A DNA stretch of 47,005 nt from a virus. Under the pieces are notes generated by a model, which was not told where the DNA came from, ran no database searches, and worked only from the letters and a program-made list of their open reading frames with translations. The position numbers and the translations under genes are program-made. This document shows, in pieces, positions 8,359 through 43,133 of the stretch; within the stretch, counting starts at the first letter, position 1, and each line of letters begins with the position of its first letter. Where the stretch lies: the IMG/VR virus record IMGVR_UViG_3300008111_000998, positions 1-47,005 of that record; one strand, given 5' to 3'.

Positions 8359-8645
8359 AATGGTTTAAAAAACTAGTAGCCAGTTGGGCAAGAGAAGGTA
8401 GAAATTATGAAGAAGATTGCGTACAGCCTAACAGATTAATCAGTACTGCTGAATGTGCTTCAATTAATGATGACCCTGTACTAAACTTTAAAATCTATTC
8501 AGCAGTAGGTGGCAAGGTTGTAGAGTTTAGACGTTATGATCGCAGGAGTGATCGCAATGATTCTACTACTTACATTATTACTAACGATCAAGACTTTGGT
8601 GATAGAATTAGTAAAATTGCAACAATGGAACAATTAAAATTATGA
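8355..8645 (+). CDS. small hypothetical phage protein
   Basis: The protein has 96 residues from ATG at 8355, which lies in an ATGA junction and has the purine-rich GGGAAAGG at 8342-8349 as ribosome site. It begins with an amphipathic basic helix (MKWFKKLVASWAREGRNYEE), then a beta segment with RRYDRRSDRND. I recall proteins with this kind of start as common, unassigned small proteins of marine T4-like phages. Confidence 0.6.
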   Translation: MKWFKKLVASWAREGRNYEEDCVQPNRLISTAECASINDDPVLNFKIYSAVGGKVVEFRRYDRRSDRNDSTTYIITNDQDFGDRISKIATMEQLKL

Positions 8646-8992
8646 ATCCACAGACCCCAGCACAGGGTGTGCTACTGGTCACCGACTGGGGCACATCAAA
8701 GATGTATAAAGCAGTATGTGAGTGTGCCAACGACGACTGTACACATACAATTGACATTGAAGCAGAAGACACAGGTGTTAATGTAACCATTTACACAAAA
8801 ACTAGAACAAACTTTTGGTCCAAATCTCGATGGCGGCACATTTGGAATCTATTAACCAAAGGATATACTGAGCTCGAAACTTGTATTATTATGCGTAAAC
8901 AGGTTGCTCTTAACTATGCAAATGTGTTACAATTAGCAGTAAAGGACGTAGAAGAATTGAGGAACAAACATGGAAAAGATCAAAGTAAGTGA
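8642..8992 (+). CDS. conserved phage protein of unknown function
   Basis: The protein has 116 residues. It has a Cys-rich early segment (VCECANDDCTH) that could hold a metal, a beta segment VNVTIYTKTRTNFW, and SRWRHIWNLLTKGYTELET, then a helical end. This layout recurs in my memory of T4-like marine phages with no known role. It overlaps queE by 23 bases. Confidence 0.7.
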   Translation: MNPQTPAQGVLLVTDWGTSKMYKAVCECANDDCTHTIDIEAEDTGVNVTIYTKTRTNFWSKSRWRHIWNLLTKGYTELETCIIMRKQVALNYANVLQLAVKDVEELRNKHGKDQSK

Positions 8993-16850: not shown

Positions 16851-17527
16851 AAGTCAGACTCGTTTCATATAGTCAACCTACAGAAGAATTTCGCAATCAA
16901 AACATCAACGATGCACTAGATCTAGTAGCATTTTGTGCGAGAGTAAGTAATCCTAGTAATCAATTTAACACAGAGACTAGCGAAAAACTCATCAAATATT
17001 TGATCAAACACCAACATTGGTCGCCACTCGAAATGGTTTCAGTTTGTATTGAAATTGAAACCACTAGAGATATTGCCCGACAAGTTCTGCGTCATAGAAG
17101 TTTTAGCTTCCAAGAGTTTAGTCAACGATATGCGGATCCAACTAAAGAAATTGGCGAAGCATTTACTCTGCGTGAAGCACGTTTTCAAGATAGTAAAAAT
17201 CGTCAAAACTCTGTTGAGTTTGACATGCAAGACGAACAACAAAAATTATTGGCCTACGAATGGGAACGTGCTCAGAAGCGTGTTTTATATGCTGTAGAAA
17301 AAGAATACAAATGGGCTATTGCTAACGGCATTGCTAAAGAACAAGCCCGTGCATTATTGCCCGAAGGTCTTACAATGAGTCGTATGTATATGAATGGTAC
17401 TCTGCGTAGCTGGATGCACTACATTGAATTACGTAGTGCTAATGGTACGCAAAAAGAACATATGGAAATTGCTCAAATTTGCGGTCAAGTAATTGCAGAA
17501 ATATTTCCGTTGTCTAAATCACTGTAA
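16847..17527 (+). CDS. thyX: flavin-dependent thymidylate synthase ThyX
   Basis: The protein has 226 residues, the normal ThyX size. ThyX makes dTMP from dUMP with FAD, NADPH and methylene-tetrahydrofolate. The signature RHRSFSFQEFSQRY is at residues 82-95 and matches the RHRxxSxxxxSxR motif. The C-terminal block with EQARALLPEGLTMSRMYMNG and WMHYIELRS is also typical. It is the last gene of the plus-strand block and its last 43 bases overlap the end of the converging gene at 17485. Confidence 0.95.
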   Translation: MKVRLVSYSQPTEEFRNQNINDALDLVAFCARVSNPSNQFNTETSEKLIKYLIKHQHWSPLEMVSVCIEIETTRDIARQVLRHRSFSFQEFSQRYADPTKEIGEAFTLREARFQDSKNRQNSVEFDMQDEQQKLLAYEWERAQKRVLYAVEKEYKWAIANGIAKEQARALLPEGLTMSRMYMNGTLRSWMHYIELRSANGTQKEHMEIAQICGQVIAEIFPLSKSL

Positions 17528-18414
17528 TGTTGCACATTATCTGATTTTCTAGTTATATTAAAATTAAATGTTTTAAACCATTTACTTTGAATAGCTGTTA
17601 ACGGATCATCTATGGGAAGCTCGTGTTTAATGAGGTTCCCAATTTTTTTGGCTAGTTCTAAAGGATCTTCACCTTTAACTCTATCATAGAAGAATGCATT
17701 GAGATAATCAAAGTTTCGAACATTGATAAAATTCCAATCAGTAAAGTGTGTCATGTAGCAGCCTTGGCGAGCTCCTAGTATACTCCAAATACCGTGTTCT
17801 ACATCTGCACCTACCATTGACCAAATACCTAACCTTTGATAATTACCCGGCCATACATCTTTTAAATGTTTGACTCGTTGGCCTTGCTCTAGACTCATTT
17901 TTACACCTTCACGGAATCCTGCTCTCCATGCTTGTAGGGCACTGCCGTTATTGTGTATCTCACTGAAACTTTTATCCAGTGGCAAATATTCTAAATCCCA
18001 ACAAAAGTCTATTTGACTTTTAACATTGTCAGCGTCAGCAAGTTCGTGTGTACGCATACCTTCTACTACATGTCTTGGCCAACATTTAATGCCACCATTG
18101 CCGTACATGAGTCCGTTGATAACATTATAACTAGGCCAACTGATTACACAATTTTCAAAATTAATATCGTTAGGAACTTCTATTACTTGATTAAGAAACT
18201 TTCCTGTAAGTACATTGTCTCCGTCTATAGTAATAAATCTATCAGTTGTGGATAACTTTGCCGCGGCTTTGTGTGCGGCATCTGAACCCTTAACTCCATG
18301 TACTCTTTTGGCCCAAGGTATTTTATTACACAAGGCAGCATAGTTACGATCAGCGTTAGGCTCATCGTAACTAATATAGATTACATCGTATTCACTTACT
18401 GCTATTTTTCTCAT
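17485..18414 (-). CDS. GT-A-like glycosyltransferase-type protein
   Basis: The protein has 309 residues. The N-terminal half has YDVIYISYDEPNADRNYAAL, KIPWAKRVHGVKGSDAAHKA and ITIDGDN with a DxD-like metal and nucleotide-sugar site (D64-G-D66), then NGLMYGNGGIKCWPR. A conserved QAWRAGFREGVKMSLEQG block and a Trp-rich end follow. It resembles in order the gene at 38696 and the last 226 residues of the 1622-residue protein directly upstream, with which it overlaps by 23 bases. It is likely a GT-A fold enzyme; the substrate is unknown. Confidence 0.72.
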   Translation of the reverse strand: MRKIAVSEYDVIYISYDEPNADRNYAALCNKIPWAKRVHGVKGSDAAHKAAAKLSTTDRFITIDGDNVLTGKFLNQVIEVPNDINFENCVISWPSYNVINGLMYGNGGIKCWPRHVVEGMRTHELADADNVKSQIDFCWDLEYLPLDKSFSEIHNNGSALQAWRAGFREGVKMSLEQGQRVKHLKDVWPGNYQRLGIWSMVGADVEHGIWSILGARQGCYMTHFTDWNFINVRNFDYLNAFFYDRVKGEDPLELAKKIGNLIKHELPIDDPLTAIQSKWFKTFNFNITRKSDNVQHYSDLDNGNISAIT

Positions 18415-21400
18415 TTAAAAATTGCTCGTATAACCAATCAAAGTCGTTAATCTTAAATAAGTTCTCTGGGTGCTCTGTAGCAAACTTACGTCCGGCGAGT
18501 GCGCCTTTTATGGCAAATTTACCGTAGGGTTTGTCTGCACCTTCTGTACACCATACATTCAAACGTTCTTCAGTTTCACTATCTACCTGACGATCAATCG
18601 TTTTACCTGCTAGTTTAGCACATTCACGGAATGCTGACTTCCAAGTTGAAAACTCATCTGTGTTAAAAGAAGTTATGTTACTGACCACTTGAACAGGTTT
18701 AAACTTGTCACTGATACTGGTTGTCATATCGGGACGAGTTACATCCATATCTAATGTAAGTTGTCTAGGCAATAGTTTAACACCACCGTAACCGTAGACT
18801 AGATTGTTAACTGGGTTTTGACTGCGCCATACATGTACAGTATCATGTTCCCATACAGGTATTTCATAGTCAAACTTGAAGTCATCAACTACAACTGCGT
18901 CACCGTCAACTACCCAGAAGTTATCTGTACCTGCCTGTTCGGCTGCTTTGATGTGTGCCTGGTGAATGCCTTTAACTCCATGTACACGTTTGACTCTTGG
19001 ATATAGTGTTTTAACTCTGTCAAAGTTTTCGTCAGCATTACTTTCGTTATAACTGATAAACACAATGTCATAGGGTTTAACTTTACTGGCTGTGATATCC
19101 CATTCTTTCTTTTCTACAATATAACGGAATGTGATTTCTTTTTCAGTAATTGGAACATGCTTGCTCATTAAGTTAATACCATTATAGTTTTCTTCACCTC
19201 TAAATAGGTGTTTAAAACTGTGATTCATATTTCTGTCATAGGTATTGTGATGACTAAAATATGTATCAAAGGCAAATGTATCAAGCGGCTCTACTTCACT
19301 AGGTACCATCCAGAACAAGTCAGTAGTTGATTTTTCTAATGCTGTTAGATAATCTCTATATGTAGTTACTGTAAATGTATCATATTTCTTTGGATAGCTA
19401 GCTACTAATTCTATTTCTTTCTTTTCACTAAAGAATCTATACTTAAATTCTTTTTCAGATACTAGTACATCCTTGCTGAACAAACAGATACCATCCCAAT
19501 GTTCTCCGTTTTTAAATATGTGAGTAATGTGTTGATTATATCGTGGAACATAGTAGTCGAAGTCAAAGTCTTCAACTACGTCAACGTCAGTCCATATACC
19601 CCAGAACATATTAGATTCAGATAAATCACATGCTTGAACATAATCTTTGTATGTAGAAATATTGAACTTATCGAACATTTTAGGTCTACTAGCCAACTCC
19701 ATCCATTCTTTGCGATCAGTTAGATATCTAAAATTAAATTCTTTTTCTGAAATAAGTTTTTTCTTACTAGCAAGTATAACTCCGTCATAGGTATCACCGT
19801 TTTTAAATACGTGATTTTCTTCTCTATCGTAACTGTTATGATAGCTAAAATAAAGATCAAAGTTAAACCCATTGACAATTTCAACATCGTTAGGTACTAT
19901 CCAGAACAAATCAGTATTTGAAGTTTCAACAGCATTGAGATATTCTGAATACTTGTTAATATAGAATATGTCATACGGTTTAGGAGTACTAGCTACTAAT
20001 TCTATTTCTTTCTTTTCACTAAAGAATCTATAATTAAATTCTCGTTCAGTAACTAACTCATGTTTTGACATCAAGCATATACCGTCCCAGTGCTCGTCAT
20101 TTTTAAATACGTGAGTGATGTGTTGATTGTAACGTGGAACATAGTAGTCAAAGTCAAAGTCTTCAACTAAATCTATATCATACCAAACACACCAAAACAT
20201 ATCTGTAGTCGATTGTTTTACTGCATTGAGATAATCATCGTAGGTTTTGATGTTAACGAATCTATTAAATTCTTTTGGTCTGCTTGCAAGTATTTCCCAT
20301 TCTTTTTTATCTGGTAAAAATCTATGTTTAAATTCTCGTTCACTTATTGATTTAAACTTGCTAGCAAGTATAATACCGTCATAGGTGTCGCCATTGAGGA
20401 ACATATGATTTTCTTCTCTATCGTAACTGTTATGATAGCTAAAATAAAGATCAAATTTAAATTCGTCAACTGTAATAACATCGCTAGGAACTATATAAAA
20501 TAAATCTGTAAGAGATTCGTCTACTGCATTTAAATATTCATCATAACTGTCAATATAAAATATATCATACTGTTTAGGATAACTTGCTACGTAGTCAATT
20601 TCTTTCTTTTCAGTAAAGAATCTATATTTGAATTCTCGTTCACTTACAGGTAAATGTTTACTGAATAAACAGATACCATCAAAATGATCACCGTTCTTAA
20701 AAATGTGCGTAATGTGTTGATTATATTTAGGCACATAGTAATTAAAATCAAAGTCTTCAACTACATCAACATCATGCCATACGCACCAGAACATGTTGCT
20801 GTTAGATTCCTTACAGGCATTAAGATATTGTTCGTATGTTTTAATGTAAAATTTATCAAAGAGTTGAGGTCTACTTACAAGTATATCCCACTCTTTTCTT
20901 TCATTTAAAAATCTGTAAGTAAATTCTCGTTCACTTATTGGTGTAGACTTGCTGGCTAAAATAACACCATCATATGTGTCACCGTTGAGAAACATATGAT
21001 TTTCTTGGCGGCTGTATGTATCATGATGACTAAAATATAAATCAAATTTGTAGTCATTGACTACTACAACATCATTTGGTATTAACCAGAATAGATCTGT
21101 AGTCGCAGATTGTGCAGCATCTACGTATTCTTCGTATGTGTTAACATAGAATATGTCATAATTTTTAGGATAGCTAATAGTATAATCAACTTCTTTTTTA
21201 TCAGTAAAGAATCTATATTTGAATTCTCGTTCGCTTACTTTATTATACTTGCTAAACAGGCAGACACCGTCCCAGTGCTCGCCATTTTTAAATACATGAG
21301 TGATATGTTGATTGTAACGTGGAACGTAGTAATCAAAGTCAAAGTCTTCAACTACATTAACGTCCGGCCATACACACCAAAACATACTTGTTTTAGATTG

Positions 21401-23260
21401 TTCACAGGCTGTGAGATATTCTTCAAAAGAATTAATATACCATACCTCAAACTTAACTGGAGAACTGGCAAGTATCTCTTCTTCTTTTCTATCTATGATA
21501 AACTTATTAGTAATTTCTTTCTGTGAAATTTCTATATATTTGCTTACTAAAAAAATACCATCATAGTAATCGCCATTTAACAACGCATGATTTTCATATC
21601 GTGTACATTGTACATTAAATTTAAAATCTTCCAATACGTTAACATCGCTTGGAATCATATAAAACATGTCTGTTGTTGTCTGTGTTTTAGCTTCTAAATA
21701 TTGCTCGTATGTGTCTACAATAAATTTATCATATGGTTTAGGATAACTTGCTATGTAATCTACTTCTTTCTTTTCATTGAAGAATCTATACTTAAATTCT
21801 TTTTTGCTAATTTGATAATGCTTGCTGAACAAACATACGCCATCTAGATACTCGCCGTTTTTAAACACATGAGTTATATGTTGATTATAACGAGGAACAT
21901 AATAATCAAATTCAAAATCTTCAACTACATTAACATCAGTCCATATAGCCCAGAACATACCTGTTGTAGATTTCTCCACTGCTGTTAGATAATCATTGTA
22001 TGTAGTAATTTCAAATTTATCAAACGCTGTTGGCATACTGGCTAATTCATCGTGTTCTTTTCTATTGATAACAAACCATGAATTGAATTCTTTTTTGCTA
22101 ATTTCCTGTTCTCTAGGAGTTAGCATAATGCCGTCATAAAAATCACCGTTTCTAAACACATGATTGATAGTTCTATTATATGTGTCATGATGTGTGTAGT
22201 ATAGGTCAAGTTTAAAATTGTCTAATATTTTTAGACTGGATGGTACTATCCAGAACATGTCAGTTGTTGAGTTATCTATAGCTTCTAGATATTCTTCGTA
22301 GGTATCTATGTTGAACTTATCGTAGGGTTTAGGATAACTGGCTACGTAGTCAACTTCTTTCTTTTCATTAAAGAACCTATACTTAAATTCTTTATCACTT
22401 ACTTTATTATGCTTGCTGAACAGGCAAAGTCCATCGTAGTGATCACCGTTCTTAAAAATGTGCGTAATGTGTTGATTATAACGAGGTGCATAATAATCAA
22501 AGGTAAAATCTTCTACAATTTCTATATCATACCAAACACCCCAGAACATATCTGTTGTTGATTGATCACAGGCAGATAGATAATCTTCGTAGGTCTTAAT
22601 ATTAAACTTTTCAAATTCTTTAGGTCGACTGGCAAGAATTTCCCACTCTTTTCGATCGCTTAAAAATCTATATTTGAACTCTCGTTCGCTTATTGGTTTA
22701 AATTTCGACGCTAGTATAATACCATCATAGGTGTCACCGTTGAGAAACATATGATTTTCTTGCCTCTCGTAACTATTGTGATGACTGAAATATAAATCAA
22801 ACTTAAACTCGTCAACAACATTGACGTCGCTAGGCACTAACCAAAACAAATCAGTAGTTGAATTTTCTAATGCTTCGCAATATTCTTCATATGTGTCTAC
22901 ATAAAAAATATCGTAGCGTTTAGGACAACTTGCTACTAAATCAATTTCTTTTTTATCAGTGAAAAATCTATATTTTAATTCTCTGTCACTAATATACTTG
23001 TGACGAGGGATCAAAGACAATCCATCAAAATATTCGTTATTTTTAAAAATATGCACATATTCTTCATCCCATTTAGGAATTGAATACGAAGAAAAATCAA
23101 AATCTTCTTTTAATTCTATATCGTCCCATACTGTCCAGAACATAGCAGTAAGGGCTTTTGATTTAGCTTCGTCAAAATTTTTGGCTTTTTTAGCAAACGG
23201 ATATTTTGATTTGATAGTTTTCCAGTTTGGATTGTTTCCAATAACAAAAATATCGTACAT
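18392..23260 (-). CDS. giant tandem-repeat protein built from a glycosyltransferase-A-like module
   Basis: The protein has 1622 residues. Residues 1-115 are a divergent copy of the N-terminal half of a GT-A-like module. About 13 repeats (116-1396) follow, alternating B type (100 residues: FWLVPSDVNVVDEF, then SHHNSYERQENH) and A type (97 residues: FWGVWYDIEIVEDF, then RYNQHITHIFKNG). Residues 1397-1622 are a full copy of the module, with FWVVDGDAVVVDDF (D1452-G-D1454), NNLVYGYGGVKLLPR and a shorter AFRECAKLAG end. In the repeats the first Asp of the DGD site is replaced by Trp or Pro while the second usually stays, so they are probably non-catalytic. Overlap with its downstream neighbour is 23 bases. 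No signal peptide is seen. Binding or scaffolding of a glycan or glycosylation complex is an inference. Confidence 0.78.
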   Translation of the reverse strand: MYDIFVIGNNPNWKTIKSKYPFAKKAKNFDEAKSKALTAMFWTVWDDIELKEDFDFSSYSIPKWDEEYVHIFKNNEYFDGLSLIPRHKYISDRELKYRFFTDKKEIDLVASCPKRYDIFYVDTYEEYCEALENSTTDLFWLVPSDVNVVDEFKFDLYFSHHNSYERQENHMFLNGDTYDGIILASKFKPISEREFKYRFLSDRKEWEILASRPKEFEKFNIKTYEDYLSACDQSTTDMFWGVWYDIEIVEDFTFDYYAPRYNQHITHIFKNGDHYDGLCLFSKHNKVSDKEFKYRFFNEKKEVDYVASYPKPYDKFNIDTYEEYLEAIDNSTTDMFWIVPSSLKILDNFKLDLYYTHHDTYNRTINHVFRNGDFYDGIMLTPREQEISKKEFNSWFVINRKEHDELASMPTAFDKFEITTYNDYLTAVEKSTTGMFWAIWTDVNVVEDFEFDYYVPRYNQHITHVFKNGEYLDGVCLFSKHYQISKKEFKYRFFNEKKEVDYIASYPKPYDKFIVDTYEQYLEAKTQTTTDMFYMIPSDVNVLEDFKFNVQCTRYENHALLNGDYYDGIFLVSKYIEISQKEITNKFIIDRKEEEILASSPVKFEVWYINSFEEYLTACEQSKTSMFWCVWPDVNVVEDFDFDYYVPRYNQHITHVFKNGEHWDGVCLFSKYNKVSEREFKYRFFTDKKEVDYTISYPKNYDIFYVNTYEEYVDAAQSATTDLFWLIPNDVVVVNDYKFDLYFSHHDTYSRQENHMFLNGDTYDGVILASKSTPISEREFTYRFLNERKEWDILVSRPQLFDKFYIKTYEQYLNACKESNSNMFWCVWHDVDVVEDFDFNYYVPKYNQHITHIFKNGDHFDGICLFSKHLPVSEREFKYRFFTEKKEIDYVASYPKQYDIFYIDSYDEYLNAVDESLTDLFYIVPSDVITVDEFKFDLYFSYHNSYDREENHMFLNGDTYDGIILASKFKSISEREFKHRFLPDKKEWEILASRPKEFNRFVNIKTYDDYLNAVKQSTTDMFWCVWYDIDLVEDFDFDYYVPRYNQHITHVFKNDEHWDGICLMSKHELVTEREFNYRFFSEKKEIELVASTPKPYDIFYINKYSEYLNAVETSNTDLFWIVPNDVEIVNGFNFDLYFSYHNSYDREENHVFKNGDTYDGVILASKKKLISEKEFNFRYLTDRKEWMELASRPKMFDKFNISTYKDYVQACDLSESNMFWGIWTDVDVVEDFDFDYYVPRYNQHITHIFKNGEHWDGICLFSKDVLVSEKEFKYRFFSEKKEIELVASYPKKYDTFTVTTYRDYLTALEKSTTDLFWMVPSEVEPLDTFAFDTYFSHHNTYDRNMNHSFKHLFRGEENYNGINLMSKHVPITEKEITFRYIVEKKEWDITASKVKPYDIVFISYNESNADENFDRVKTLYPRVKRVHGVKGIHQAHIKAAEQAGTDNFWVVDGDAVVVDDFKFDYEIPVWEHDTVHVWRSQNPVNNLVYGYGGVKLLPRQLTLDMDVTRPDMTTSISDKFKPVQVVSNITSFNTDEFSTWKSAFRECAKLAGKTIDRQVDSETEERLNVWCTEGADKPYGKFAIKGALAGRKFATEHPENLFKINDFDWLYEQFLNEKNSSK
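19073..22915 (-). repeat. 13 tandem coding repeats of about 295 bases in a two-type alternating pattern
   Basis: Units of about 300 bases (B) and 291 bases (A) alternate without exception, making a higher-order period near 591 bases. At the DNA level the A units share recurring stretches, for example ACATGAGTGATATGTTGATT and close variants. This favours copy-number change by recombination. The array lies inside the 1622-residue gene and is bounded by an A-like N-terminal unit and the C-terminal GT-A-like module. Confidence 0.85.
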
Positions 23261-23998: not shown

Positions 23999-25251
23999 TT
24001 CTCTAACCTCTGTACTGTTTTAAAAGTTGTTTTTTCTAACAGACAGTGATAGTTATGATCTAATACTGACTGCATCTGATTATAGATTTCCCTTAACTCA
24101 TTAATGCTTTTTGAATTTATATAATTAATTAAATTTAAAATTTTTATAATACGCTGTTCATGATTTGTTTCTTGATCATAACTTTCGTCCCAAAAATCTG
24201 AAAATGTTTTAAAGCCCATTCTTTTAGCATATTCTATAGTATGAGGAGGTGCTACTAATATAAAAGGACGCTTATATCTTATGGCTTGATATAATTTTTC
24301 GCTGTAATTACCACAATGCTGTGCAAATCTTGTTTCATTAATTACATCACAAAAACTATCATTGTAAAAATTTTCTAATGGATTTAATCTAGGATTATTA
24401 ATTGCAGGAGTTTCATAGATAGTATAATCATCTGTCACTGGATAATGAGATGCTGTATTATCAGTTATTTCTACTAAAGCTTTAGCTTTGATATCTAAAC
24501 ATACTGGAGAATGATAATTTAAAATTTCTAATCCAGAGTTAAGTTGATCATATAGTTCTTTATTTGTTTTTTTCCATTGATGTAGAGGAAAAAATAAATC
24601 ATGTGAAAATGCTTGGTTATTACAATTAAAATACCAACTGTAGTTAGAAGAAACTGTTGATAAGAATGCAGTAATTAGATGACGATGTTTTGTGTATCGC
24701 CAATTTACACAAATAAATTTTTTAGTAAATTTGTTATTAGGAAAACTCTCAAATAAAGAATAATTTTTTAAAAATAGATCATTTGTTACTAACTTCATCA
24801 TCTTTGTATAATGTGGATGATAGTGAGCTGCTTTGTAATCACAGGTATTTACTATTACTTTTTTTAAACCATTACGTGTAATATATTCTTTAATACTTTC
24901 TAACTCATCAGCTCGCATTTCTTGTACATTTGTTTCAAAAGGAAATTCACTGTAAAATCCTCTGTTGTGATGATACTGTTCTTTACGAGAACAAATAGGT
25001 TCGTATAAGAAAAAATGCAAACCTAAATTATTCATAATTGATATGTCGTCAATACTATGACTGATATTTTTTAATCCCGTTAATTCTCCGTTACCCATGT
25101 AAACAAACACAGGCACATGAGGAGCCAGGCCTGAAGAATTTCTAACCTGCTTCATAAAAAGATTTGCATCTGTTTCAGCGCGGTTTGACATGCCCGGAAT
25201 ATTAAACCAATGTAGTTGTGTTAATTCGTGCTCAGGGGGGCTAGTAATCAA
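23995..25251 (-). CDS. putative GT-B-like glycosyltransferase (family with 29593 and 32737 genes)
   Basis: The protein has 418 residues. The C-terminal third has YSEKLYQAIRYKRPFILVAP and KRMGFKTFSDFWDESYDQET, which correspond to EKTFRPIALKHPFILASRP / LGYKTFSPLIDESYD of the gene at 29593 and to EKLFKPIANFHPFIIVSRP / IGYKTFHPYINEAYD of that at 32737. The EK-then-PFI-then-GxKTF order suggests a nucleotide-sugar site in a GT-B-like fold, somewhat like fucosyltransferase or exostosin ends. The N-terminal half has a central PHVPVFVYMGN segment. It has a 4-base overlap with each neighbour. The substrate is unknown. Confidence 0.6.
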   Translation of the reverse strand: MITSPPEHELTQLHWFNIPGMSNRAETDANLFMKQVRNSSGLAPHVPVFVYMGNGELTGLKNISHSIDDISIMNNLGLHFFLYEPICSRKEQYHHNRGFYSEFPFETNVQEMRADELESIKEYITRNGLKKVIVNTCDYKAAHYHPHYTKMMKLVTNDLFLKNYSLFESFPNNKFTKKFICVNWRYTKHRHLITAFLSTVSSNYSWYFNCNNQAFSHDLFFPLHQWKKTNKELYDQLNSGLEILNYHSPVCLDIKAKALVEITDNTASHYPVTDDYTIYETPAINNPRLNPLENFYNDSFCDVINETRFAQHCGNYSEKLYQAIRYKRPFILVAPPHTIEYAKRMGFKTFSDFWDESYDQETNHEQRIIKILNLINYINSKSINELREIYNQMQSVLDHNYHCLLEKTTFKTVQRLEK

Positions 25252-25748
25252 AGCAGTTCTCCTGTAATCTGAAGTGTATATCTATCTTCTACTCCTATAT
25301 TACTAGCTGCATGAGGAACATCATATTGCCAGAAAAAATAGTCGCCTGCTTTCCAATTTACATAGCCAACATCTGCTATTTCTAAATAATGTCCGGGTTG
25401 CCAATCTTCTAACATAATTAAAACTCTACAGACATTTGTTGGAACTGCATTAAACAATTTAGTATAAGTTCTAAAATGGTCAGTATGAGTAGGCATTATT
25501 TCTAGGGTACTCATTTTATAAAAATTATATGTTTGATTTTTTAAACCAAATATATTGTTAAACTTTTCTACCCAACTTGGCAATGGGTTTTTACTGTCAT
25601 ACATTGATCCTGTAAAACTTTTTATACAGTCATAACCTTTTTCTTTCCACTGGGCAATTTCTTGTTCAGTTACTGGTTGTTTAACGTAAGAAAAAGTCCT
25701 ATAACTTTTATCCCAAAAAGGATTAACATGTCCAGTATAAAAGTTCAT
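25248..25748 (-). CDS. Fe(II)/2-oxoglutarate-type aspartyl/asparaginyl hydroxylase-like protein
   Basis: The protein has 166 residues. The double-stranded beta-helix motif is visible: H88-T-D90 in MPTHTDHFRTY, a distal H146 in VPHAASNIG, and R156 that could bind 2-oxoglutarate. GHYLEIADVGYVNWKAGDYF lies between. Such enzymes hydroxylate a residue or small molecule. The gene sits between the GT-B-like gene and the amidinotransferase and is joined to both by 4-base overlaps, so they probably serve one pathway. The substrate is unknown. Confidence 0.78.
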   Translation of the reverse strand: MNFYTGHVNPFWDKSYRTFSYVKQPVTEQEIAQWKEKGYDCIKSFTGSMYDSKNPLPSWVEKFNNIFGLKNQTYNFYKMSTLEIMPTHTDHFRTYTKLFNAVPTNVCRVLIMLEDWQPGHYLEIADVGYVNWKAGDYFFWQYDVPHAASNIGVEDRYTLQITGELL

Positions 25749-26722
25749 GTATGCTTCCTTTGTATGTCAAGGGTGACACAATGAAAGCCTCCACCTAATG
25801 TACGCTGTTGCCTCATTGGTAGCATTGCACATTCAATACCATATTTTTCTAATTCTTTACGTAGGTTGTGTTGATTTTCTTCTAATGCAACTAGATTAGG
25901 ATTAACACTGAACAAATTCATATTAATCCATGTGCTAGCATTACAGTAACCAGGATAATGTCCAATATCAATAGGTTCAGGACACCATATGTAGTCCCAT
26001 GACTGTAATGGTTTAGGTAACTGATCAATACTTTTAATCCTAGCAGGATTTAACAACATTAGGCCTTCGCGAAGTAACCCGATAGTACTGTCTAAATGCA
26101 TATAACTATACACACCTTCGATAGTCCAAACTTTGTTATTAGGCAGTAACTCTTGTAGATACTCAGCGCCTTGCTTGTTGCCACTGTTACTGACTAGATA
26201 GTATAAATTATCATTGTCTCTTAAAATGTTAGCTGCATCAAAAGCTGGCTCAGTCTCGTTAAGTGCTAGTATGTTAGGATCTCCAAGACATTTTAAATTA
26301 TATAAATCTTCGTCATGCGAACATCTAGCAATCGTTACAACATAGTTGTTTTCAAAATGTTCTTGCAGGGCAAAATATTCATTGTGTCTTGCTTTTAATG
26401 GTTGAGGTGTTGATAAAATTAATTTATCATGTACTAACACTCCGTCTCTAGGACAATAGTTATAGTAATTAGGAACAACATTTTTGTTTGGTCTTAATAC
26501 AGTTACTCCGCAGGATTTTAAAAAAACAACAAATTTTTCTAAATCTTCATTGGCTTCATCAATAACTTGTTGTGGATAAGGTCCTACTGGAATTTCGTTG
26601 ACATCTTTTACATCTGCATAATTAACAGTTCTTAAACTAATATCGACGGAAGGTATTTTAGCATCGTCTGCAATACCAACTATAACTGTTTCTAATGGAT
26701 CCCATTCATTTTTACTTAACAT
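25745..26722 (-). CDS. amidinotransferase-family enzyme
   Basis: The protein has 325 residues. It has the start WDPLETVIVGIADD, the YCPRDGVLVHDKLILSTP block (Arg-Asp), EPAFDAANILR, SYMHLDSTIG with the His, and a C-terminal Cys (C315) in TLGGGFHCVTLD. This is the order of arginine:glycine and StrB1-type amidinotransferases, which move an amidino group from arginine to an amine. The likely product is a guanidinylated compound, perhaps made on a sugar or a small molecule assembled by neighbours. It overlaps the next gene by 4 bases and the aminotransferase by 11. Confidence 0.86.
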   Translation of the reverse strand: MLSKNEWDPLETVIVGIADDAKIPSVDISLRTVNYADVKDVNEIPVGPYPQQVIDEANEDLEKFVVFLKSCGVTVLRPNKNVVPNYYNYCPRDGVLVHDKLILSTPQPLKARHNEYFALQEHFENNYVVTIARCSHDEDLYNLKCLGDPNILALNETEPAFDAANILRDNDNLYYLVSNSGNKQGAEYLQELLPNNKVWTIEGVYSYMHLDSTIGLLREGLMLLNPARIKSIDQLPKPLQSWDYIWCPEPIDIGHYPGYCNASTWINMNLFSVNPNLVALEENQHNLRKELEKYGIECAMLPMRQQRTLGGGFHCVTLDIQRKHT

Positions 26723-27302
26723 TGAACACCTTCATTTTTGATATATCAGGATAATCTGCATTACTCCATTTTTTTGGAGTTAAATCTTTTACTTGATTGA
26801 ATTTTTCTATACCTAGCTCTGCTGTTTCAGGAGTCATATAATAATGATAACCAAACATATCAACGTCCTGTTCTTTCCAAGGCATGTCTTGAAGTCGACC
26901 GTCATAACTCATTTTTTTAAGAGTCTGCGCAGAAGAATAATTATCAGTAAGAATAATTCCGCCTCGTCCTAGGTTAAGATGTTTTTTATATTGGAAACTT
27001 AAACACATAAATGTATCCGGCACGTAGCTGTTTTCTTTCCATAAAACTGCTGCATCAATAACATTAGTATTACCAATAAAATAATAGTCTTGCCATATTG
27101 AGTCTGCAAATTCCCAGGACAAGCCTAATTTTTCAAATGTCATTGGTATAGACAGATAGGTATGTGTAGGACAGGTTACTAACCTAGGATTTATATGTCG
27201 TAGACAAAGTTCTATAGCGTGTGTACAACTATCGGTTGCAACAGCATATTTAGAACCAAAATATTTTGCAATGGTGTTTTCAAAGTTAACTATTGGGGAC
27301 AT
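26712..27302 (-). CDS. short DegT/DnrJ/EryC1-type aminotransferase-like protein
   Basis: The protein has 196 residues, about half the family's usual 370-400. It has the PLP-domain features: NFENTIAKYFGSKYAVATDS at the start, TNVIDAAVLW with the ring-nitrogen Asp (D83), and SFQYKKHLNLGRGG with the likely PLP lysine (K107). The C-terminal small domain is missing or replaced by a short tail. It may work as a compact or split enzyme, or bind a partner. It sits between the amidinotransferase and the radical SAM genes, with 11- and 17-base overlaps. An amino sugar or amine donor role is inferred. Confidence 0.78.
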   Translation of the reverse strand: MSPIVNFENTIAKYFGSKYAVATDSCTHAIELCLRHINPRLVTCPTHTYLSIPMTFEKLGLSWEFADSIWQDYYFIGNTNVIDAAVLWKENSYVPDTFMCLSFQYKKHLNLGRGGIILTDNYSSAQTLKKMSYDGRLQDMPWKEQDVDMFGYHYYMTPETAELGIEKFNQVKDLTPKKWSNADYPDISKMKVFNVK

Positions 27303-29541
27303 TTTCTTTTATGTTCTTAATACTAGAGATTGGAATTACTACATTAGAGTGCATTGCTGCCTTTTCAGGAATAGCTTCCATTTTTGAAATATTTGGAACT
27401 TCTACTTCGTACTCTTTAAAATTACCCCAATGACCTTGGCCTCTATATCTATACTGAAAGGTAAAATCTATTGTGTTATTTAAAATTCTTTCTTCTTCTA
27501 AAAGAACATTAAAGTCGTCACCACTTCTGCCAGCTTCAACATCCCATGTTGGTTTAGCTAACTTCCTTGCTCGCTTTGCAGTATTACTCATCATGCGACT
27601 ATAATCCTGAGCATAGAATGGTCCTTTACGACCTCTAGGCGGAGGCTCTCTTTCGTCGTAGGGATTATCAATTTGATCAAATTTGTATTTAAAATCAGCA
27701 GTCCATTGACCGTCATCTGAAATTTTAAATTTAAATAATGCGTTATACATTCCTGGACCGTATTGGGTTCCAAATTCTTTTAGATCAATTGTGGGATTAA
27801 ATAAAATTTCAGCTTCATACCCGCCTCGAGTTTTCCATAGCATACGGAAAAATGGCCACATCTCATTTACTAGTGCATCAGCAAAAGGATTAAGATTAGG
27901 TTTAATTATATTGTAATCAAACTTTTCATATTCAATTTCTTTTATAAGGTATGGATTGTTTAATTGTATTTTATAGTGCTCTTTAGCTAGATTAAATCTT
28001 ACAGGGTATCCAAAAGGTACTTCAGTACATCCCGTCATTAAATCTAGGAACATATGGAGTATCTTTACTCTGGTCATAACATGTGTACCACCTTTGGTAA
28101 AATCACTAGTGATCCAATGTCCTTGATATTTTTGTGCGCTGATATTAAACTTATGTGTATTCTGCCCAACAATAGTTTCCGGTCCTAGACCGTAGCCTAC
28201 ACCGGCGCCAACATTGTTGATATTCATGTCACGCATACGCCACAACAGAGTCATGCTATCAGCAAAGTCTTGTAGCGTTTCTGTAGGGAATCCTACGATC
28301 CAGTTTGTAGCAGCATAGATACCAACTTCCTTACCATCGCGGAAGTTCTGTTCCATTTCTGCAATAGTAACACCTTTGGCCATGTCGTCTAGTACACTTT
28401 GACTGCCACTTTCAATACCGTAGTTTAGCATGATGCAACCTCCGGCTTTTAGATCTTTAAAATACTCTAGATCCATACGGCCATCACAACGAGCATAACC
28501 TGTCCAATTAATTTTAAGACCTTTAGCTTCAACTGCTTTACAAAATGCACGTAGTTCTTTTAAATTGCCGTTAACAAGACTATCAATGAACCAAATAACA
28601 TCAACACCTTTATTGTAGTAAAGCCATTCTATTTCAGAAATAAGATCAACTGACTGACGCTGACGATATTTCCAAAAGTGTGTTTCTTCGCAGAATGTAC
28701 ATTTAGCTGTACAACCTCGACTAATTTCTGTGTTAACACCGTTGGGTAGATCGTAAAGACTAAAGTCGATGCTTTCGTAATCAGGCATCGGCAATCCATT
28801 AATATTAACACGCTCGTATTCGTCTTGAGTAAGCACAACTGATCCACTGTGTTCAACACCATTTTCTACATCTTCTAATAATTTTAGCAGATTAATTTCA
28901 CCTTCACCCACCACAACATAATCGTAATAAGGATGTACAGTAAACCAACTTTTGTGTGCGTTAGGGCCGCCAACTGCAATTTTAATATGCGGTGCTCTGC
29001 GCTTTAATTCTTGCGCCATCCACTTTGTAGGTTCTTCGCTGATATAGTACATAGAAAACCCTACTACTTGAGGATTCATTTCTATTATTTCTTGTATTGC
29101 CTGTTCAAGAATTGGTTCTAATACAGGATGTATGTCTTTCATATAGGTTTCACCTAGCCAGTGCCAACTGGCTGCAGGATCCCATAGTCTAAATGGTAGT
29201 TTGTTGTTAGGGATCCAATCTTCTTGATGGGCACGATATGCCTTAACATTAAGATCCATAATAAGAGTTTCATATCCTGCACTCTTGGCTACACCACTTA
29301 ATCTAGCAAGACTAAATGGCGGCATATAAGGACTCCATTCTGGACATAATACCAATACTAGTTTAGTGTTTCTAGTTTTGTAGTCTACATAAACAGGAGT
29401 GAGATTTTTCTGTACTGTTGGTTTTGCATAGGGAGCAATCGCCTTCATCATAGACATATGACGTGCGTCTGCTAGATCTTCTGGCGGCTTTTCGGGGAGG
29501 ACTACTTCTTTTTTAGCAAGTCCTTGTAGATTAAAATCCAA
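27286..29541 (-). CDS. B12-binding-type radical SAM protein
   Basis: The protein has 751 residues. Residues about 58-225 form a cobalamin-binding-like fold (LVLVLCPEWSPYMPPFSLAR, VVGFSMYYISEEPT, IAVGGPNAH, VVVGEGEINLL). The classic DxHxxG cobalamin motif is not seen. The radical SAM motif is C277-TAK-C281-TF-C284, followed by NYGIESGSQSVLDDM and WIVGFPTETLQDFADS. The last 250 residues form an unfamiliar domain with aromatic and basic stretches. Related enzymes methylate or rearrange unactivated carbons. It has an AGGAG ribosome site and the gene before is separated by 51 bases. A natural-product-like modification is the best reading. Confidence 0.86.
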   Translation of the reverse strand: MDFNLQGLAKKEVVLPEKPPEDLADARHMSMMKAIAPYAKPTVQKNLTPVYVDYKTRNTKLVLVLCPEWSPYMPPFSLARLSGVAKSAGYETLIMDLNVKAYRAHQEDWIPNNKLPFRLWDPAASWHWLGETYMKDIHPVLEPILEQAIQEIIEMNPQVVGFSMYYISEEPTKWMAQELKRRAPHIKIAVGGPNAHKSWFTVHPYYDYVVVGEGEINLLKLLEDVENGVEHSGSVVLTQDEYERVNINGLPMPDYESIDFSLYDLPNGVNTEISRGCTAKCTFCEETHFWKYRQRQSVDLISEIEWLYYNKGVDVIWFIDSLVNGNLKELRAFCKAVEAKGLKINWTGYARCDGRMDLEYFKDLKAGGCIMLNYGIESGSQSVLDDMAKGVTIAEMEQNFRDGKEVGIYAATNWIVGFPTETLQDFADSMTLLWRMRDMNINNVGAGVGYGLGPETIVGQNTHKFNISAQKYQGHWITSDFTKGGTHVMTRVKILHMFLDLMTGCTEVPFGYPVRFNLAKEHYKIQLNNPYLIKEIEYEKFDYNIIKPNLNPFADALVNEMWPFFRMLWKTRGGYEAEILFNPTIDLKEFGTQYGPGMYNALFKFKISDDGQWTADFKYKFDQIDNPYDEREPPPRGRKGPFYAQDYSRMMSNTAKRARKLAKPTWDVEAGRSGDDFNVLLEEERILNNTIDFTFQYRYRGQGHWGNFKEYEVEVPNISKMEAIPEKAAMHSNVVIPISSIKNIKENVPNS

Positions 29542-29592
29542 TATAATTCTCCTATCAAATATTTAACAGTTTTAATTTTAACCGTTTTTTTT

Positions 29593-30600
29593 CTAAACTC
29601 CGGTCTGATCTAAACGATACTGAGTTTTTTCCATTAATACTCGATAATTATGATCAAGGATATCTTTGATATCCGTCTGCCATTTAATCCAATGATCATC
29701 TGTAAAATCACATAGACGTAGGACTTCTTTCCAAATCATTTCTAATCTTAAATGATCGTCAAGTTCACTGTCATAACTTTCGTCAATCAAAGGACTAAAA
29801 GTTTTATATCCTAGCTTTTTTAAATACTGTAAAGAAAATGGTCTTGATGCTAAAATAAAAGGGTGCTTTAGTGCGATTGGTCTAAATGTTTTTTCTGTTA
29901 AAAATACAGAATCTCCGGCATCTATAAACGGAAAAAAATCATTATGGTCTTGAAAAAATAAAGTTTCAGTAACTAAACTAAAATAACTATCGCTGTGATA
30001 AGTTAAATCTTCAAGTCTTACATCAATTGGATTGTATCGATCGTCTGGTACATTAAGACGTAAGGGAAATATATCTTGATATCTCGTGAACAATTTCCAC
30101 ATTCTTTTGTACTCCGACAGTCCTGATAATCGTTGTATTACATCTAGACCGTATTCAAAAGATGAGTAAGTTTTTTCTAAAAAATTGTCGTCAAGTATTT
30201 TATAAAAAATACGTGCTCGATGTTCTCTTAACTGTTTGTTAAGACAGCAAAATAATTTAGATTTTTTTTGAATCAAATATTCAATTTTAGGATGTTTGGT
30301 GTCTCGATAAAAAACTGAAAGATTTTCTTTCATTACATTTTCAAAAACACTAATACAAGAAATTTTAATTACAGGTTCTATATTTTGTTCTAGGCAATAG
30401 GCTTCATAAGTTTCTTGTCCATTTTGAGCTGAAGTTAGATATACATAGGAAACACTATAATCATTTATCTGTCTAATAATTCGATGAATTTTTCTTATAT
30501 GATCAAAATAAACTGCTTCGTTTATATTGTCAAATAGAATTATTTTATAACCGTCTTTAATTGCTGCTTTAATAGAATCTGTTATTGGCTCTGTATCCAT
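29593..30600 (-). CDS. putative GT-B-like glycosyltransferase, N-terminus uncertain
   Basis: The protein has at least 335 residues. The C-terminal part has VFLTEKTFRPIALKHPFIL and KKLGYKTFSPLIDESYDSEL, and so is a paralog of the proteins at 23995 and 32737. The ATG at 30600 gives MDTEPITDSIKAAIKDGYK, but the open frame runs 40 codons further up (RETFYVYAGTYSHCS) to the A-run at 30724. That stretch seems to match the N-terminal strand of the 32737 paralog (DAQYFCVDF) and lacks any ATG, GTG or TTG. The true start is therefore unclear. No DxD-like site is seen. Confidence 0.6.
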   Translation of the reverse strand: MDTEPITDSIKAAIKDGYKIILFDNINEAVYFDHIRKIHRIIRQINDYSVSYVYLTSAQNGQETYEAYCLEQNIEPVIKISCISVFENVMKENLSVFYRDTKHPKIEYLIQKKSKLFCCLNKQLREHRARIFYKILDDNFLEKTYSSFEYGLDVIQRLSGLSEYKRMWKLFTRYQDIFPLRLNVPDDRYNPIDVRLEDLTYHSDSYFSLVTETLFFQDHNDFFPFIDAGDSVFLTEKTFRPIALKHPFILASRPFSLQYLKKLGYKTFSPLIDESYDSELDDHLRLEMIWKEVLRLCDFTDDHWIKWQTDIKDILDHNYRVLMEKTQYRLDQTGV

Positions 30601-30741
30601 TTTAGGAAAAGAACAATGAGAATATGTTCCGGCATAAACGTAAAATGTTTCTCGGCCAATGATACCGATTACATCTGTTAGAAATTCAATGTTATGACCA
30701 ACGGTCTGTTGATCTAAAATTAATTTTTTTTTTGACGAGAA
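30601..30741 (-). other. open frame upstream of the ATG, with a run of ten A at a possible -1 slippage site
   Basis: On the coding strand a run of ten A (30724-30733) lies just before the stop TAA (30720-30722) of the dehydrogenase gene. The 40 codons from 30720 to 30601 are open in the frame of the downstream gene, without a normal start. That frame differs from the dehydrogenase frame by -1, so slippage on the A-run would fuse the two proteins. A homopolymer length error would give the same picture. Confidence 0.4.
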
Positions 30742-31913
30742 TTACCGTAATGTATTACTTCAAAGTTGGCGCCATCAACAGTTTTTAATTTTCGCCAAGG
30801 GTCTATTACTATAGAACCTGTAGAGAATGTTACGTGATTTACCCATTTGTCCCAATACCCGATAAGGTAAACTTCAGTCCACTCAGGTTTAAGATCTAGA
30901 TCGTTAGTATGCACATCATAATAATTTACAGTACCGCCTAGTTTTTCAATGTAATGTCCTACCAACAGACTAGGACTTCCATTAGTATAGTGTACTCCTG
31001 GCTTGTATGCTTTACCTACTATAGTAATATTTGTACCGTAAGACAAACATTTTTTAGCAATACGTTCTGATTGTACTTCTCTAGCTGTCATAATAGCATC
31101 AAACAAATCATAGCCTAGATCAAGTTTATCTGCTAGATATCTTAATGCTATATTATCTCTAGGATGGCATGCGCCCCCATCACCTAATCCCGCTTTCATG
31201 TATGCAGGACCCATAATGCGATACGAACTTTTTGCCAAGGCGTCAGTTACTACATCGACATTGATATTACCATTTGTTTCAGCAACATCTTGTATCATGT
31301 TAACTAATGCTAATTTAGTACTGATAAATGTATTATAAAAAATCTTAATTGATTCTGCTTCGTCCCAAGTTCCAACTTCGTACCTTGGATTATTTTTCAT
31401 AAGGGGAGCATAAAAATTAATTAATTCCTGTGCATCGCCTGTAACACTACCATCTTCTGTGCCAATGATTACCATTTCAGGATTAATCATATCATACTTA
31501 ACTGTACCCATTGCAATAAGATAGGGGTTATAGATAAATCGAGCATTAGTTATTAAGGGTTCTAGTTGCGATCTTACTGTGCCAGGTAAAACTGTGCTGA
31601 TTAAAACAACTAATTGTTTTTTGTTAACATGTTTGTTAACTTCTTGTAAAATATTTTTAACAATAGTGTAATCAAAGTCTTTATTTGGCAAATGGCTTGT
31701 TGGCGTTTCTCCCCCGTACATAGGATCGTGCGGAGTTGGTGCTGCAATAAAAATAAAACTACTGTTTTCTACTGCTTCCTTTATTGAAGACATCATAAGA
31801 AAAGCAGGTGTCCTAGGCTCAACATCATAGCCCACTACTTGGTAGTGTTCTGCCATTACTTCGGCGCAATCTTGCCCAAGTTTCCCAACGCCAATCATAG
31901 CAACTTTAGTCAT
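30720..31913 (-). CDS. full-length UDP-glucose/GDP-mannose dehydrogenase-family enzyme
   Basis: The protein has 397 residues. Rossmann motif GVGKLG is at 8-13. The catalytic-cysteine region is GLGDGGACHPRD with C249. The third domain has NITIVGKAYKPGVHYTNGSP followed by YYDVHTND. All three domains are therefore present, unlike the short relative at 5107. It should make a uronic acid from a nucleotide sugar for the neighbouring glycosyltransferases. It ends in a lysine-rich tail encoded by a run of ten A. Before its start is an ATAAATA late-promoter-like motif and the gene at 31943 lies 29 bases upstream. Confidence 0.86.
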   Translation of the reverse strand: MTKVAMIGVGKLGQDCAEVMAEHYQVVGYDVEPRTPAFLMMSSIKEAVENSSFIFIAAPTPHDPMYGGETPTSHLPNKDFDYTIVKNILQEVNKHVNKKQLVVLISTVLPGTVRSQLEPLITNARFIYNPYLIAMGTVKYDMINPEMVIIGTEDGSVTGDAQELINFYAPLMKNNPRYEVGTWDEAESIKIFYNTFISTKLALVNMIQDVAETNGNINVDVVTDALAKSSYRIMGPAYMKAGLGDGGACHPRDNIALRYLADKLDLGYDLFDAIMTAREVQSERIAKKCLSYGTNITIVGKAYKPGVHYTNGSPSLLVGHYIEKLGGTVNYYDVHTNDLDLKPEWTEVYLIGYWDKWVNHVTFSTGSIVIDPWRKLKTVDGANFEVIHYGNSRQKKN

Positions 31914-33876: not shown

Positions 33877-34842
33877 TTAAATCATTTCAAATTTTGGAAT
33901 AATAATATCAGTACCGCAATGACAATGTTCTTTGCCGCAGATAATTTTTTTAGGGCCAACTGAACTTATGTCCTGTAATATGTGTCCTACCTTGTCACCT
34001 TGCCCGCAACTAGCTAAACTGACTTCTCCAGTAGGATTAATAAAAATAGCATCTCCTACATTGCACAGCCAGCCTTTAAAGAAATTTTCTCCGTTAACAA
34101 TAATTTCATTACTGTTAGTAGCTGATTTAGACTGATCGTCGTATTTGTTAAAACTAACTGCTTTACTTTCTTTGTAAGGTTTAGGTAATGTAAAATTCAT
34201 TTCTACGTTATGTGTATCAATGAACGTTTTCTTTTCAGGATCTTTATATTGCCAAGGACCTGCATTAACACTCATTTCATCAAATAACGGTGTCCATTCG
34301 ATAAAGTAGTTAGGCATAACTTCTTTTAAGTGATTGCCGTACTCTACAACTTCCCAGAATCGTTCTTCGTGCATCAACATCTTTGTACAAAGATAGTTTA
34401 CTTTGTCACAGAGAAAAATATTGTTTTCTTTATATTTTTCTTTGTCAGAAAATTCAACATGGAAACTGGCAACAATATCATCAAACAAATGATAGTGTTT
34501 TTCCCACCATGCTAACGGACGACTTAAATTAGTATTAACTGCTAATGTGCAGTCTGGCAATTTTTCTCGTAGCCATTCGCAGATAGGAATGAAATTTTTC
34601 CAAGCAGTAGGTTCTCCGCCAGAGAAGAAAAACTTATAATGTTTGTATCCTACTTTTTTATATCTTTCAATAATGATTTCTAAATTTTTAATATAAACAT
34701 CTAGGTTATCATCATTCCTATGACTGCCGCCCCAATTGCCTGGATTACAGTAACTACATTTAAAATTACAAAAATTATTAACTTGCCATGTAACTGCCAA
34801 ATACGGCTCAGGGGCTGTAATTGCTATTAACTTTTTGCCCAT
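33877..34842 (-). CDS. radical SAM protein with SPASM-like C-terminus
   Basis: The protein has 321 residues. The radical SAM cluster is C25-NFK-C29-SY-C32 near the N-terminus; SGGEPTAW is the SAM-binding motif. The end has a Cys-rich region (GWLCNVGDA, ASCGQGDK, ICGKEHCHCGTD) that could hold an auxiliary iron-sulfur cluster, as in SPASM proteins. Such enzymes often modify peptides or proteins. It overlaps the next radical SAM gene by 16 bases and abuts the GT-B-like gene, so it belongs to one operon. Confidence 0.85.
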   Translation of the reverse strand: MGKKLIAITAPEPYLAVTWQVNNFCNFKCSYCNPGNWGGSHRNDDNLDVYIKNLEIIIERYKKVGYKHYKFFFSGGEPTAWKNFIPICEWLREKLPDCTLAVNTNLSRPLAWWEKHYHLFDDIVASFHVEFSDKEKYKENNIFLCDKVNYLCTKMLMHEERFWEVVEYGNHLKEVMPNYFIEWTPLFDEMSVNAGPWQYKDPEKKTFIDTHNVEMNFTLPKPYKESKAVSFNKYDDQSKSATNSNEIIVNGENFFKGWLCNVGDAIFINPTGEVSLASCGQGDKVGHILQDISSVGPKKIICGKEHCHCGTDIIIPKFEMI

Positions 34843-36086
34843 CTATAAACCTCTTTTAATTCAGGAATTACATCTAAAATACTTTCATTGCGTACACTGT
34901 CTAATTCGTCATTGAATTTAATAAACTCTTGTATGCCGCCTTTGTTAGGATCACCGCTTTTTAAATTCTGACTTATCATTTTAAATCCATTACTAATGTG
35001 AGGATTGTACGAATATTTGTGAATGTATTCTCTGTAAAGTCTGCCTAGTTTTTCTTTTGAAAATTCAGGAAGAATCATGATATTTGAATACCACGGGCTA
35101 GTAGCAAGATTAAACCTAGGTGCTGTGTTTTTATCAATTAACTCATTGTCTATAAGATAGTCAAAGAATTTAGGAAACTGGAACACATTCCATATACTGA
35201 TTGTTGGTGTTATTTGGAACTGTGCATGTGGTACTAGTGCTTTTAATTCGCGTAAATTTTTCTCAGTTCTTTCCCAGTCAGTGCCTTTGCGAATCAATTC
35301 AGCATGATCTCCCATGCCGTCAAGACTGGCCCAAATAATTAGATTAGGGAACTTTTTCCAATACTCAATTAGATCTTTATCTTTAAATTTAAGACTGCTG
35401 AAATTTGTCGTGTAACTTAATTCAATAGTTTCATTTACTCCAGTTTCAATCCAGTAATCTAAACATTCATAATGCTCAGGAGTAATGATAATTTCTCCGC
35501 CGGCAAAGTAAACTTCTACTACATCTTTGAGATACGGTTTGAGTTTAGTCATTAACATTTGATCATCGTTGTTACTGACTACCATTTTAGTCATATTAAA
35601 ATGCTTGTCTAAAACTTCAACACCTTTATGTTCAATAAATTCCTGTGCCCATAGGCTAGAGCAACTTGGTCCGCAACTACGGCATTTCATATTACATAGA
35701 TTGCTAAAACGAATATCCATATATTTTAATTTAAATTCGTTTAAGCTGCCATCGTCATTAGTATCTTCCACAATATCAACAAAGTCAAGACCTCTGCGTT
35801 TATTATGACTCTGACGCATAGTCCACGTGCCTAATTTTTCAAGATCGTAGCATCGTTGGCATGCTTCAACAGGTTCGTCGTTGAGCATGTTTAGACGCAT
35901 TTTCTTATAATCATCACTGTTCATCATTTCTAGTACAGATTCGTTTGATTTAATTTCGCCCACTGGCTTATTACTATCAGCTACACAGCACGGCATTACT
36001 CTACGATCTGGCCAAGCGTGAAAGTGAATCCACGGCAGTATACAAAAATGTTTTCCATTTTCAACAAGGTCTTTTACGTTTTTCAT
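34827..36086 (-). CDS. N-terminal twitch domain radical SAM protein
   Basis: The protein has 419 residues. Before the radical SAM cluster lies a Cys-rich twitch-like domain: C15 (HFCILPWIHFHAWPDRRVMP region), C33-C34, C76 and C79. The SAM cluster is C131-NMK-C135-RS-C138, followed by VYFAGGEI and later a strand IIWASLDGMGDHAELIR. This order (twitch domain first) matches the N_Twi_rSAM family known from marine phages and bacteria, whose substrates are unknown. Two paralogs follow directly upstream (36089, 37311). Confidence 0.85.
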   Translation of the reverse strand: MKNVKDLVENGKHFCILPWIHFHAWPDRRVMPCCVADSNKPVGEIKSNESVLEMMNSDDYKKMRLNMLNDEPVEACQRCYDLEKLGTWTMRQSHNKRRGLDFVDIVEDTNDDGSLNEFKLKYMDIRFSNLCNMKCRSCGPSCSSLWAQEFIEHKGVEVLDKHFNMTKMVVSNNDDQMLMTKLKPYLKDVVEVYFAGGEIIITPEHYECLDYWIETGVNETIELSYTTNFSSLKFKDKDLIEYWKKFPNLIIWASLDGMGDHAELIRKGTDWERTEKNLRELKALVPHAQFQITPTISIWNVFQFPKFFDYLIDNELIDKNTAPRFNLATSPWYSNIMILPEFSKEKLGRLYREYIHKYSYNPHISNGFKMISQNLKSGDPNKGGIQEFIKFNDELDSVRNESILDVIPELKEVYRWAKS

Positions 36087-36088
36087 TC

Positions 36089-42184: not shown

Positions 42185-42213
42185 ATTATACTATTTTATC
42201 TAAAAATTGTCAA
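42185..42213 (-). promoter_or_regulatory. perfect consensus sigma70 promoter driving the long minus-strand operon
   Basis: On the minus strand TTGACA (42208-42213), 17 bases and TATAAT (42185-42190) form a full-consensus promoter. The -35 box overlaps the end of the structural gene at 42200. A 6-bp dyad (AATAGT/ACTATT) surrounds the -10 and could be an operator. The first ATG is 24 bases downstream. Confidence 0.85.
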
Positions 42214-43123: not shown

Positions 43124-43133
43124 TTTATGTTCC

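Follow-up and report, generated by a model that had tools for sequence, protein, structure and literature searches.

Array gene and repeat anatomy

The 47,005-nt stretch of viral DNA analyzed here (IMG/VR record IMGVR_UViG_3300008111_000998, positions 1 to 47,005; hereafter the window) carries a gene for a 1622-residue protein, in which an N-terminal cap (N-cap) unit and 13 alternating repeat units precede a C-terminal domain (C domain) resembling glycosyltransferases of the GT-A fold (Table 1). On comparison of the protein with itself, identity reached 0.328 at an offset of 197 residues, with further peaks at 97 and 100, while the highest value obtained from 200 shuffles of the sequence was 0.092. 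After the first unit (u1, residues 1–106) the order is B A B A B A B A B A B A B, strictly alternating. The six A units (u3, 5, 7, 9, 11, 13) are each 97 amino acids (aa) long and the seven B units (u2, 4, 6, 8, 10, 12, 14) 100 aa, except that u6 has 94, u14 has 103 and u10 has a single extra residue. Pairwise identity is 65–75% among A units, 45–77% among B units and 35–48% between the two, with the A-like u1 sharing 41–47% with A units and 27–35% with B units. Counting u1, the array totals 14 repeats followed by the C domain. The initial annotation, made from the sequence of this stretch, had described 97- and 100-residue repeats in strict alternation, seven B and six A, and this unit count was correct. 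It had also described a related N-terminal piece and a full C-terminal copy; both are present, with the refinement that u1 is a distinct and conserved N-cap. In a tree of units, the u1 units of 12 arrays form a single clade (support 0.98), and the layout of N-cap, expandable middle and catalytic C domain is therefore taken to have arisen once; all repeats split from the C domains with a support of 0.79.

Table 1. Array gene, its units and neighboring features of the window (positions are those of the window).
Feature	Position	Strand	Remarks
Array gene, 1622 aa: N-cap unit, 13 alternating units and C-terminal GT-A-like domain	18392..23260	-	ATG start
u1, N-cap unit, A-like, GT-A-like start kept (MYDIFVIG..NWKTIKSKYPFAKKA)	22943..23260	-	own clade over 12 arrays, support 0.98
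u2, B unit, 100 aa	22643..22942	-	
u3, A unit, 97 aa	22352..22642	-	
u4, B unit	22052..22351	-	
u5, A unit	21761..22051	-	
u6, B unit, 94 aa	21479..21760	-	
u7, A unit	21188..21478	-	
u8, B unit	20888..21187	-	
u9, A unit	20597..20887	-	
u10, B unit	20294..20596	-	
u11, A unit	20003..20293	-	
u12, B unit	19703..20002	-	
u13, A unit	19412..19702	-	
u14, last B unit, 103 aa	19103..19411	-	
Complete C-terminal GT-A-like domain (type II), residues 1394–1622	18395..19081	-	
DxD motif of C domain (DGD, residues 1452–1454)	18899..18907	-	D-x-D invariant in 17/17 aligned members
Stand-alone paralog, 309 aa (type I GT-A-like)	17485..18414	-	overlaps end of array gene
Hydroxylase-like (weak), DegT aminotransferase, B12-radical SAM and UDP-glucose dehydrogenase genes	25248..31913	-	same cluster
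Four radical SAM genes	33877..38699	-	SPASM domain detected in at least one
Type I paralog, 298 aa	38696..39592	-	adjoins virion genes
Conserved virion block	42200..44918	-	43134–44918 matches virion structural/tail fiber PHROGs; 42200–43123 by synteny only

The same 14-unit array was found in L001 and L002, IMG/VR contigs from two other samples, at 99.75% aa identity, the window and L001 differing at 28 of 4872 nt. Nearly all units are also kept position by position in the more distantly related L009 (13 units), at 76–93% identity and with synonymous sites near saturation, and L009 and L004 preserve the same units at 76–93% identity with silent sites saturated. The pooled ratio of nonsynonymous to synonymous substitution (dN/dS) was 0.059 over the repeats (11 repeat pairs) and 0.042 in the C domain; the repeats are under purifying selection. 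As nearly all retained units are closer to the unit at the same position in L009 than to their own paralogs, the array has been stable at this level of divergence. In L003 (7995–12626), an in-frame deletion of 80 residues joins u10 to u11 off register, crossing a unit border, and the protein has four other amino-acid differences from that of the window; this would be either a real variant or a collapse of repeats. That off-register deletion speaks for an assembly artifact from collapsed or expanded repeats, an alternative raised in the initial annotation, but the identical layout in contigs from other samples, the retention of units despite silent-site saturation and the dN/dS of about 0.06 refute it, leaving it practically no likelihood.

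Fold, DxD motif and family of the array protein

The segment u12-u13-u14-C was modeled together with 66 relatives using AlphaFold (predicted local distance difference test, pLDDT, 93.2), and the whole four-part model was scored with Foldseek. All 46 PDB matches at E <= 1e-3 were GT-A transferases, including WrtF, K4CP, polypeptide GalNAc-transferases, SunS/ThuS, ArnC, RmlT and PcManGT, with the exception of HddC, a sugar-nucleotidyltransferase of related fold. In the model, each repeat follows the strand and helix order of the C domain, minus a helix-strand pair near the start and minus the C-terminal helices, and a repeat profile matched the C domain with an independent E-value of 3e-8 (hhalign P = 4.9e-8). 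The predicted structure thus supports derivation of the C domain from a GT-A fold, and the sequence homology likewise supports derivation of the repeats from a GT-A domain, with weaker structural backing than for the C domain. The GT-A-like module proposed initially is upheld by these matches; on structure prediction the outcome was divided, as the model of three repeats with the C domain matched GT-A entries and a repeat-only model (pLDDT 91.4) reached a non-significant best E of 0.26 in the PDB, its 50 listed entries all being GT-A enzymes or sugar-/CDP-nucleotidyltransferases.

The D-x-D motif is invariant where the C domain is aligned with single-domain relatives and 300-residue neighbors, and was present in 79 of 79 C domains (78 by pattern and the last by eye, VDADA). 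Both aspartates were retained in none of the 164 distinct internal repeat units placed by profile alignment, the position of the first being mostly occupied by W, P or S. On account of this difference, the repeats are read as dead, shortened GT-A copies preceding one live enzyme, with the DxD-bearing C domain as the predicted active transferase.

Compared with known GT-A glycosyltransferases (WrtF 9omn, K4CP 2z86, PGANT9 6e4r, SunS 7msn), the C domain shares the predicted fold and the invariant DxD at 9–14% identity and without reaching the cut-off of any Pfam GT family, whereas the present family carries up to 16 shortened copies lacking DxD. The chondroitin polymerase of Escherichia coli K4, a tandem two-domain GT-A enzyme, likewise has several GT-A domains in one chain; unlike it, the array protein has one DxD domain and 14 without, the copies being half-size. 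The best structural matches came from BFVD, namely A0A6J5LK21 (804 aa, E 8e-33) and A0A6J5L5L5 (1076 aa, E 2e-30) of uncultured Caudovirales phage, which are deposited as uncharacterized, align over more than 600 columns at 18–19% identity and are probably relatives.

Pfam, NCBIfam and PHROGs held no family for the array protein, and none of the fiber or receptor-binding families of Pfam or PHROGs matched it. The Pfam glycosyltransferase family 2 (PF00535) stayed below its curated cut-off (best E 0.024, in 3 of 17 members), the best PHROGs profile (0.0023) covered short, chance-like stretches and was not significant, and PDB searches by sequence returned chance matches only. Pfam matches on the array to phosphonate-binding, Nudix and coatomer families were rejected as composition-driven, each being below cut-off. 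Searches of 50,697 isolate phage records by tblastn, using the full protein, the C domain, the type I neighbor and a single-domain relative as queries, gave nothing significant, in a collection from which near relatives of the window may be missing. In its fold the enzyme domain is of a known kind, if divergent, and the unusual part is the architecture: the protein-family libraries, isolate phages and papers searched contained no long array of shortened, disarmed GT-A copies. This agrees with the initial statement that no protein of this layout had been described, the protein being one extreme of a large undescribed family.

Uncultivated aquatic phages carry the family widely: scanning IMG/VR with the C-domain alignment yielded at least 550 relatives. 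Array length, which the initial annotation had suggested comparing among related phages, varies from 0 to 16 units among 68 non-redundant complete members: 29 have no repeats, and 1, 2, 3, 4, 5 and 6 repeats occur in 6, 6, 8, 8, 4 and 2 members, respectively, with 7, 13 and 14 in one each and 16 in two. Periodicity is two-unit in the window array and three-unit in the two 16-unit arrays (likewise given for L005/L006), with none clear in shorter arrays; the alternation therefore reflects lineage-specific block duplication. In L094 (8374–10681), L038 (8434–10687) and L101 (3910–6217), the array is divided over two overlapping open reading frames (ORFs; four units; one unit plus the C domain), which suggests either that the array need not be a single chain or a frameshift. 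A scan of one genome per bacterial or archaeal species gave 10 loci, including several Bdellovibrionia metagenome-assembled genomes (MAGs) and one named strain, Mucilaginibacter galii CCM 8711, in which type II is accompanied by a methyltransferase; none of the 10 had an array.

Gene neighborhood and enzyme partners

In the gene order recurring in phages of this family, virion structural genes are followed by a small gene, by three genes belonging to one cluster, and then by the type I paralog, the type II (array) gene and a radical S-adenosylmethionine (SAM) gene. The array gene of the window is located at the opposite end of this cluster, to which the four radical SAM genes and the DegT aminotransferase, UDP-glucose dehydrogenase and B12-radical SAM genes also belong. 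Across 92 loci, the gene directly downstream was a radical SAM gene in 38, the methyltransferase-like gene c2 in 24 and a type I gene in 12, with type I directly upstream in 29. In some genomes these partners, i.e., a second GT-A domain (type I), a radical SAM-SPASM domain or a methyltransferase-like part, are fused to type II. A C domain joined to radical SAM-SPASM was seen in L022, L023 and L112 (two phage contigs and an Oligoflexia genome), and L058 (8993–12343) and L070/L071 (9050–12223) encode type I, type II, a helical tract and a c2-like C-terminal part. The helical tract is a second, unrelated tandem array of repeats of approximately 22 residues (NLHSLFRLLGDEHEDLRKA..). None of the six type I–type II fusions contained repeats.

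Type I, type II and radical SAM-SPASM also recur together in Bdellovibrionia, where three MAG loci (L109, 7980–11141; L111, 7998–10964; L110, 7986–10962) form a compact module of the three outside obvious phage context.

One relative contig has a T4-type portal and another has a gp23 capsid gene; neither was found in L001, probably because the contigs are partial, and synteny points to a T4-like phage for the window as well. In T4-like pelagimyophages and cyanomyophages, fiber genes of the host recognition cluster described in PMC7029224 are accompanied by glycosyltransferases, UDP-glucose dehydrogenase and radical SAM cassettes. The gene content of the window matches that description, which offers a precedent for a cassette placed there. 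The portions of PMC7029224 drawn on for this comparison, which is one of descriptions and not of the genomes themselves, mention no repeat-array glycosyltransferase.

Other genes of the window may be noted. The B12-binding radical SAM gene is a single 751-aa ORF with a TTG start (27286–29541), as it is single in L005, and is present as two ORFs (318 and 432 aa) in L001. Two tandem genes without family matches (40158–41817) resemble GT8-type transferases by eye (LVIDSDYIV); in many phage loci this pair is conserved and lies upstream of type I. There are two different UDP-glucose dehydrogenase-like genes (5107–5922 and 30720–31913), the first shortened (271 aa), and the GTP cyclohydrolase and QueE-like genes at 5975–9842 suggest a deazaguanine (queuosine-type) base modification of the phage DNA.

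Possible roles of the array

What the computation shows is how the repeats are built, that they have lost DxD and are under purifying selection, that the layout has a single origin, that copy number varies, and which neighbors and fusion partners the gene has. The reading we favor, with moderate confidence, is that the gene encodes a phage glycosyltransferase of the host recognition cluster, with the array serving as a non-catalytic scaffold that holds the acceptor. One live GT-A domain, at the C-terminus and with its DxD present, would stand behind tandem shortened copies that have lost theirs. Its partners would be the type I protein and the radical SAM-SPASM enzymes, together forming a cassette for making or attaching a modified sugar; this cassette would sit in the host recognition cluster, adjoining the virion genes. 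The chain of former enzyme domains may grip the acceptor, either a glycan or a repetitive fiber protein, at many points, feeding it to the live domain and/or holding the partner enzymes. Such binding of acceptor or partners by the array is putative, and the target would be a glycan or glycoprotein of the virion or host surface.

A number of points weigh against this scaffold reading. The repeat-only model had no significant PDB match, so that the GT-A nature of a single repeat is mainly sequence-based. The absence of repeats from many close relatives (29 of the 68 members) indicates that the array is dispensable for basic function, and the methyltransferase-like label of c2 is a putative reading of its sequence, a Pfam search of c2 having given nothing. 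Repeat number was also uncorrelated with the length of neighboring fiber-like genes (Spearman -0.27, p 0.12; 0.19, p 0.39), which lends a simple ruler no support. A further idea, which we consider rather unlikely, is that of a new scaffold class: an enzyme domain would have been shortened, disarmed and multiplied in tandem, giving a rod of variable length from which the one live copy at its end receives its substrate, and repeat number would tune how the modification of the virion or host surface turns out.

The best-surviving alternative, possible although we consider it unlikely, keeps the same enzyme and has the cassette alter the host surface polysaccharide to block competing phages, the array being a polysaccharide-binding tract. 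Such a role has been proposed for the glycosyltransferases of the pelagimyophage host recognition cluster, as described in PMC7029224, and the UDP-glucose dehydrogenase and DegT aminotransferase of the window cluster would fit it, as would the polysaccharide synthases among the Foldseek neighbors. However, no obvious membrane anchor or signal sequence was seen by eye, the type I, type II and radical SAM genes directly follow virion-block genes in many loci, and radical SAM-SPASM partners suit peptide modification at least equally well.

Part of the variation in unit number may be neutral. That copy number is largely neutral, with unequal recombination multiplying units and any number working, seems improbable to us: the range of 0–16 units among close relatives, the differing periodicity (two-unit in the window, three-unit in L005/L006) and the deletion in L003 that ignores unit borders would be expected on this basis, but each unit is held at a dN/dS of about 0.06 and nearly all retained units resemble their positional equivalents in L009 more than their paralogs.

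Display of the array on the virion as a structural fiber or adhesin of GT-A-like beads would account for the rod-like form of arrays that reach 16 units, for purifying selection and for a cluster position with tail genes. We judge it decidedly unlikely, given that the array always comes with an enzyme-like C domain whose DxD is invariant, the gene order is unchanged for single-domain versions, relatives in bacteria, away from phage clusters, are paired with radical SAM enzymes, and fusions of type I to type II, in some cases ending in a methyltransferase-like part, look enzyme-like. Among the putative roles offered in the initial annotation (scaffold, multivalent glycan binder or surface fiber), the genome context favors an enzyme-attached scaffold over a fiber. 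A processive polymerase with every unit catalytic has precedent in two-domain GT-A polymerases such as K4CP, itself among the Foldseek matches, but is very improbable given the loss of DxD in all 164 internal units and the absence from the units of one helix-strand pair and the C-terminal helices.

Glycosyltransferases are common in aquatic T4-like phages, and their targets and partners are mostly unknown. No other described long array of shortened GT-A domains was found in the literature searched. The present family provides a recurrent cassette beside virion genes, consisting of two GT-A proteins, radical SAM-SPASM enzymes and a putative methyltransferase, a grouping which the fusions support. 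Its array-free homologs in bacterial MAGs and in Mucilaginibacter galii CCM 8711 are testable, and the family as a whole forms a natural series, from 0 to 16 units, for asking what amplified and disarmed enzyme domains do.

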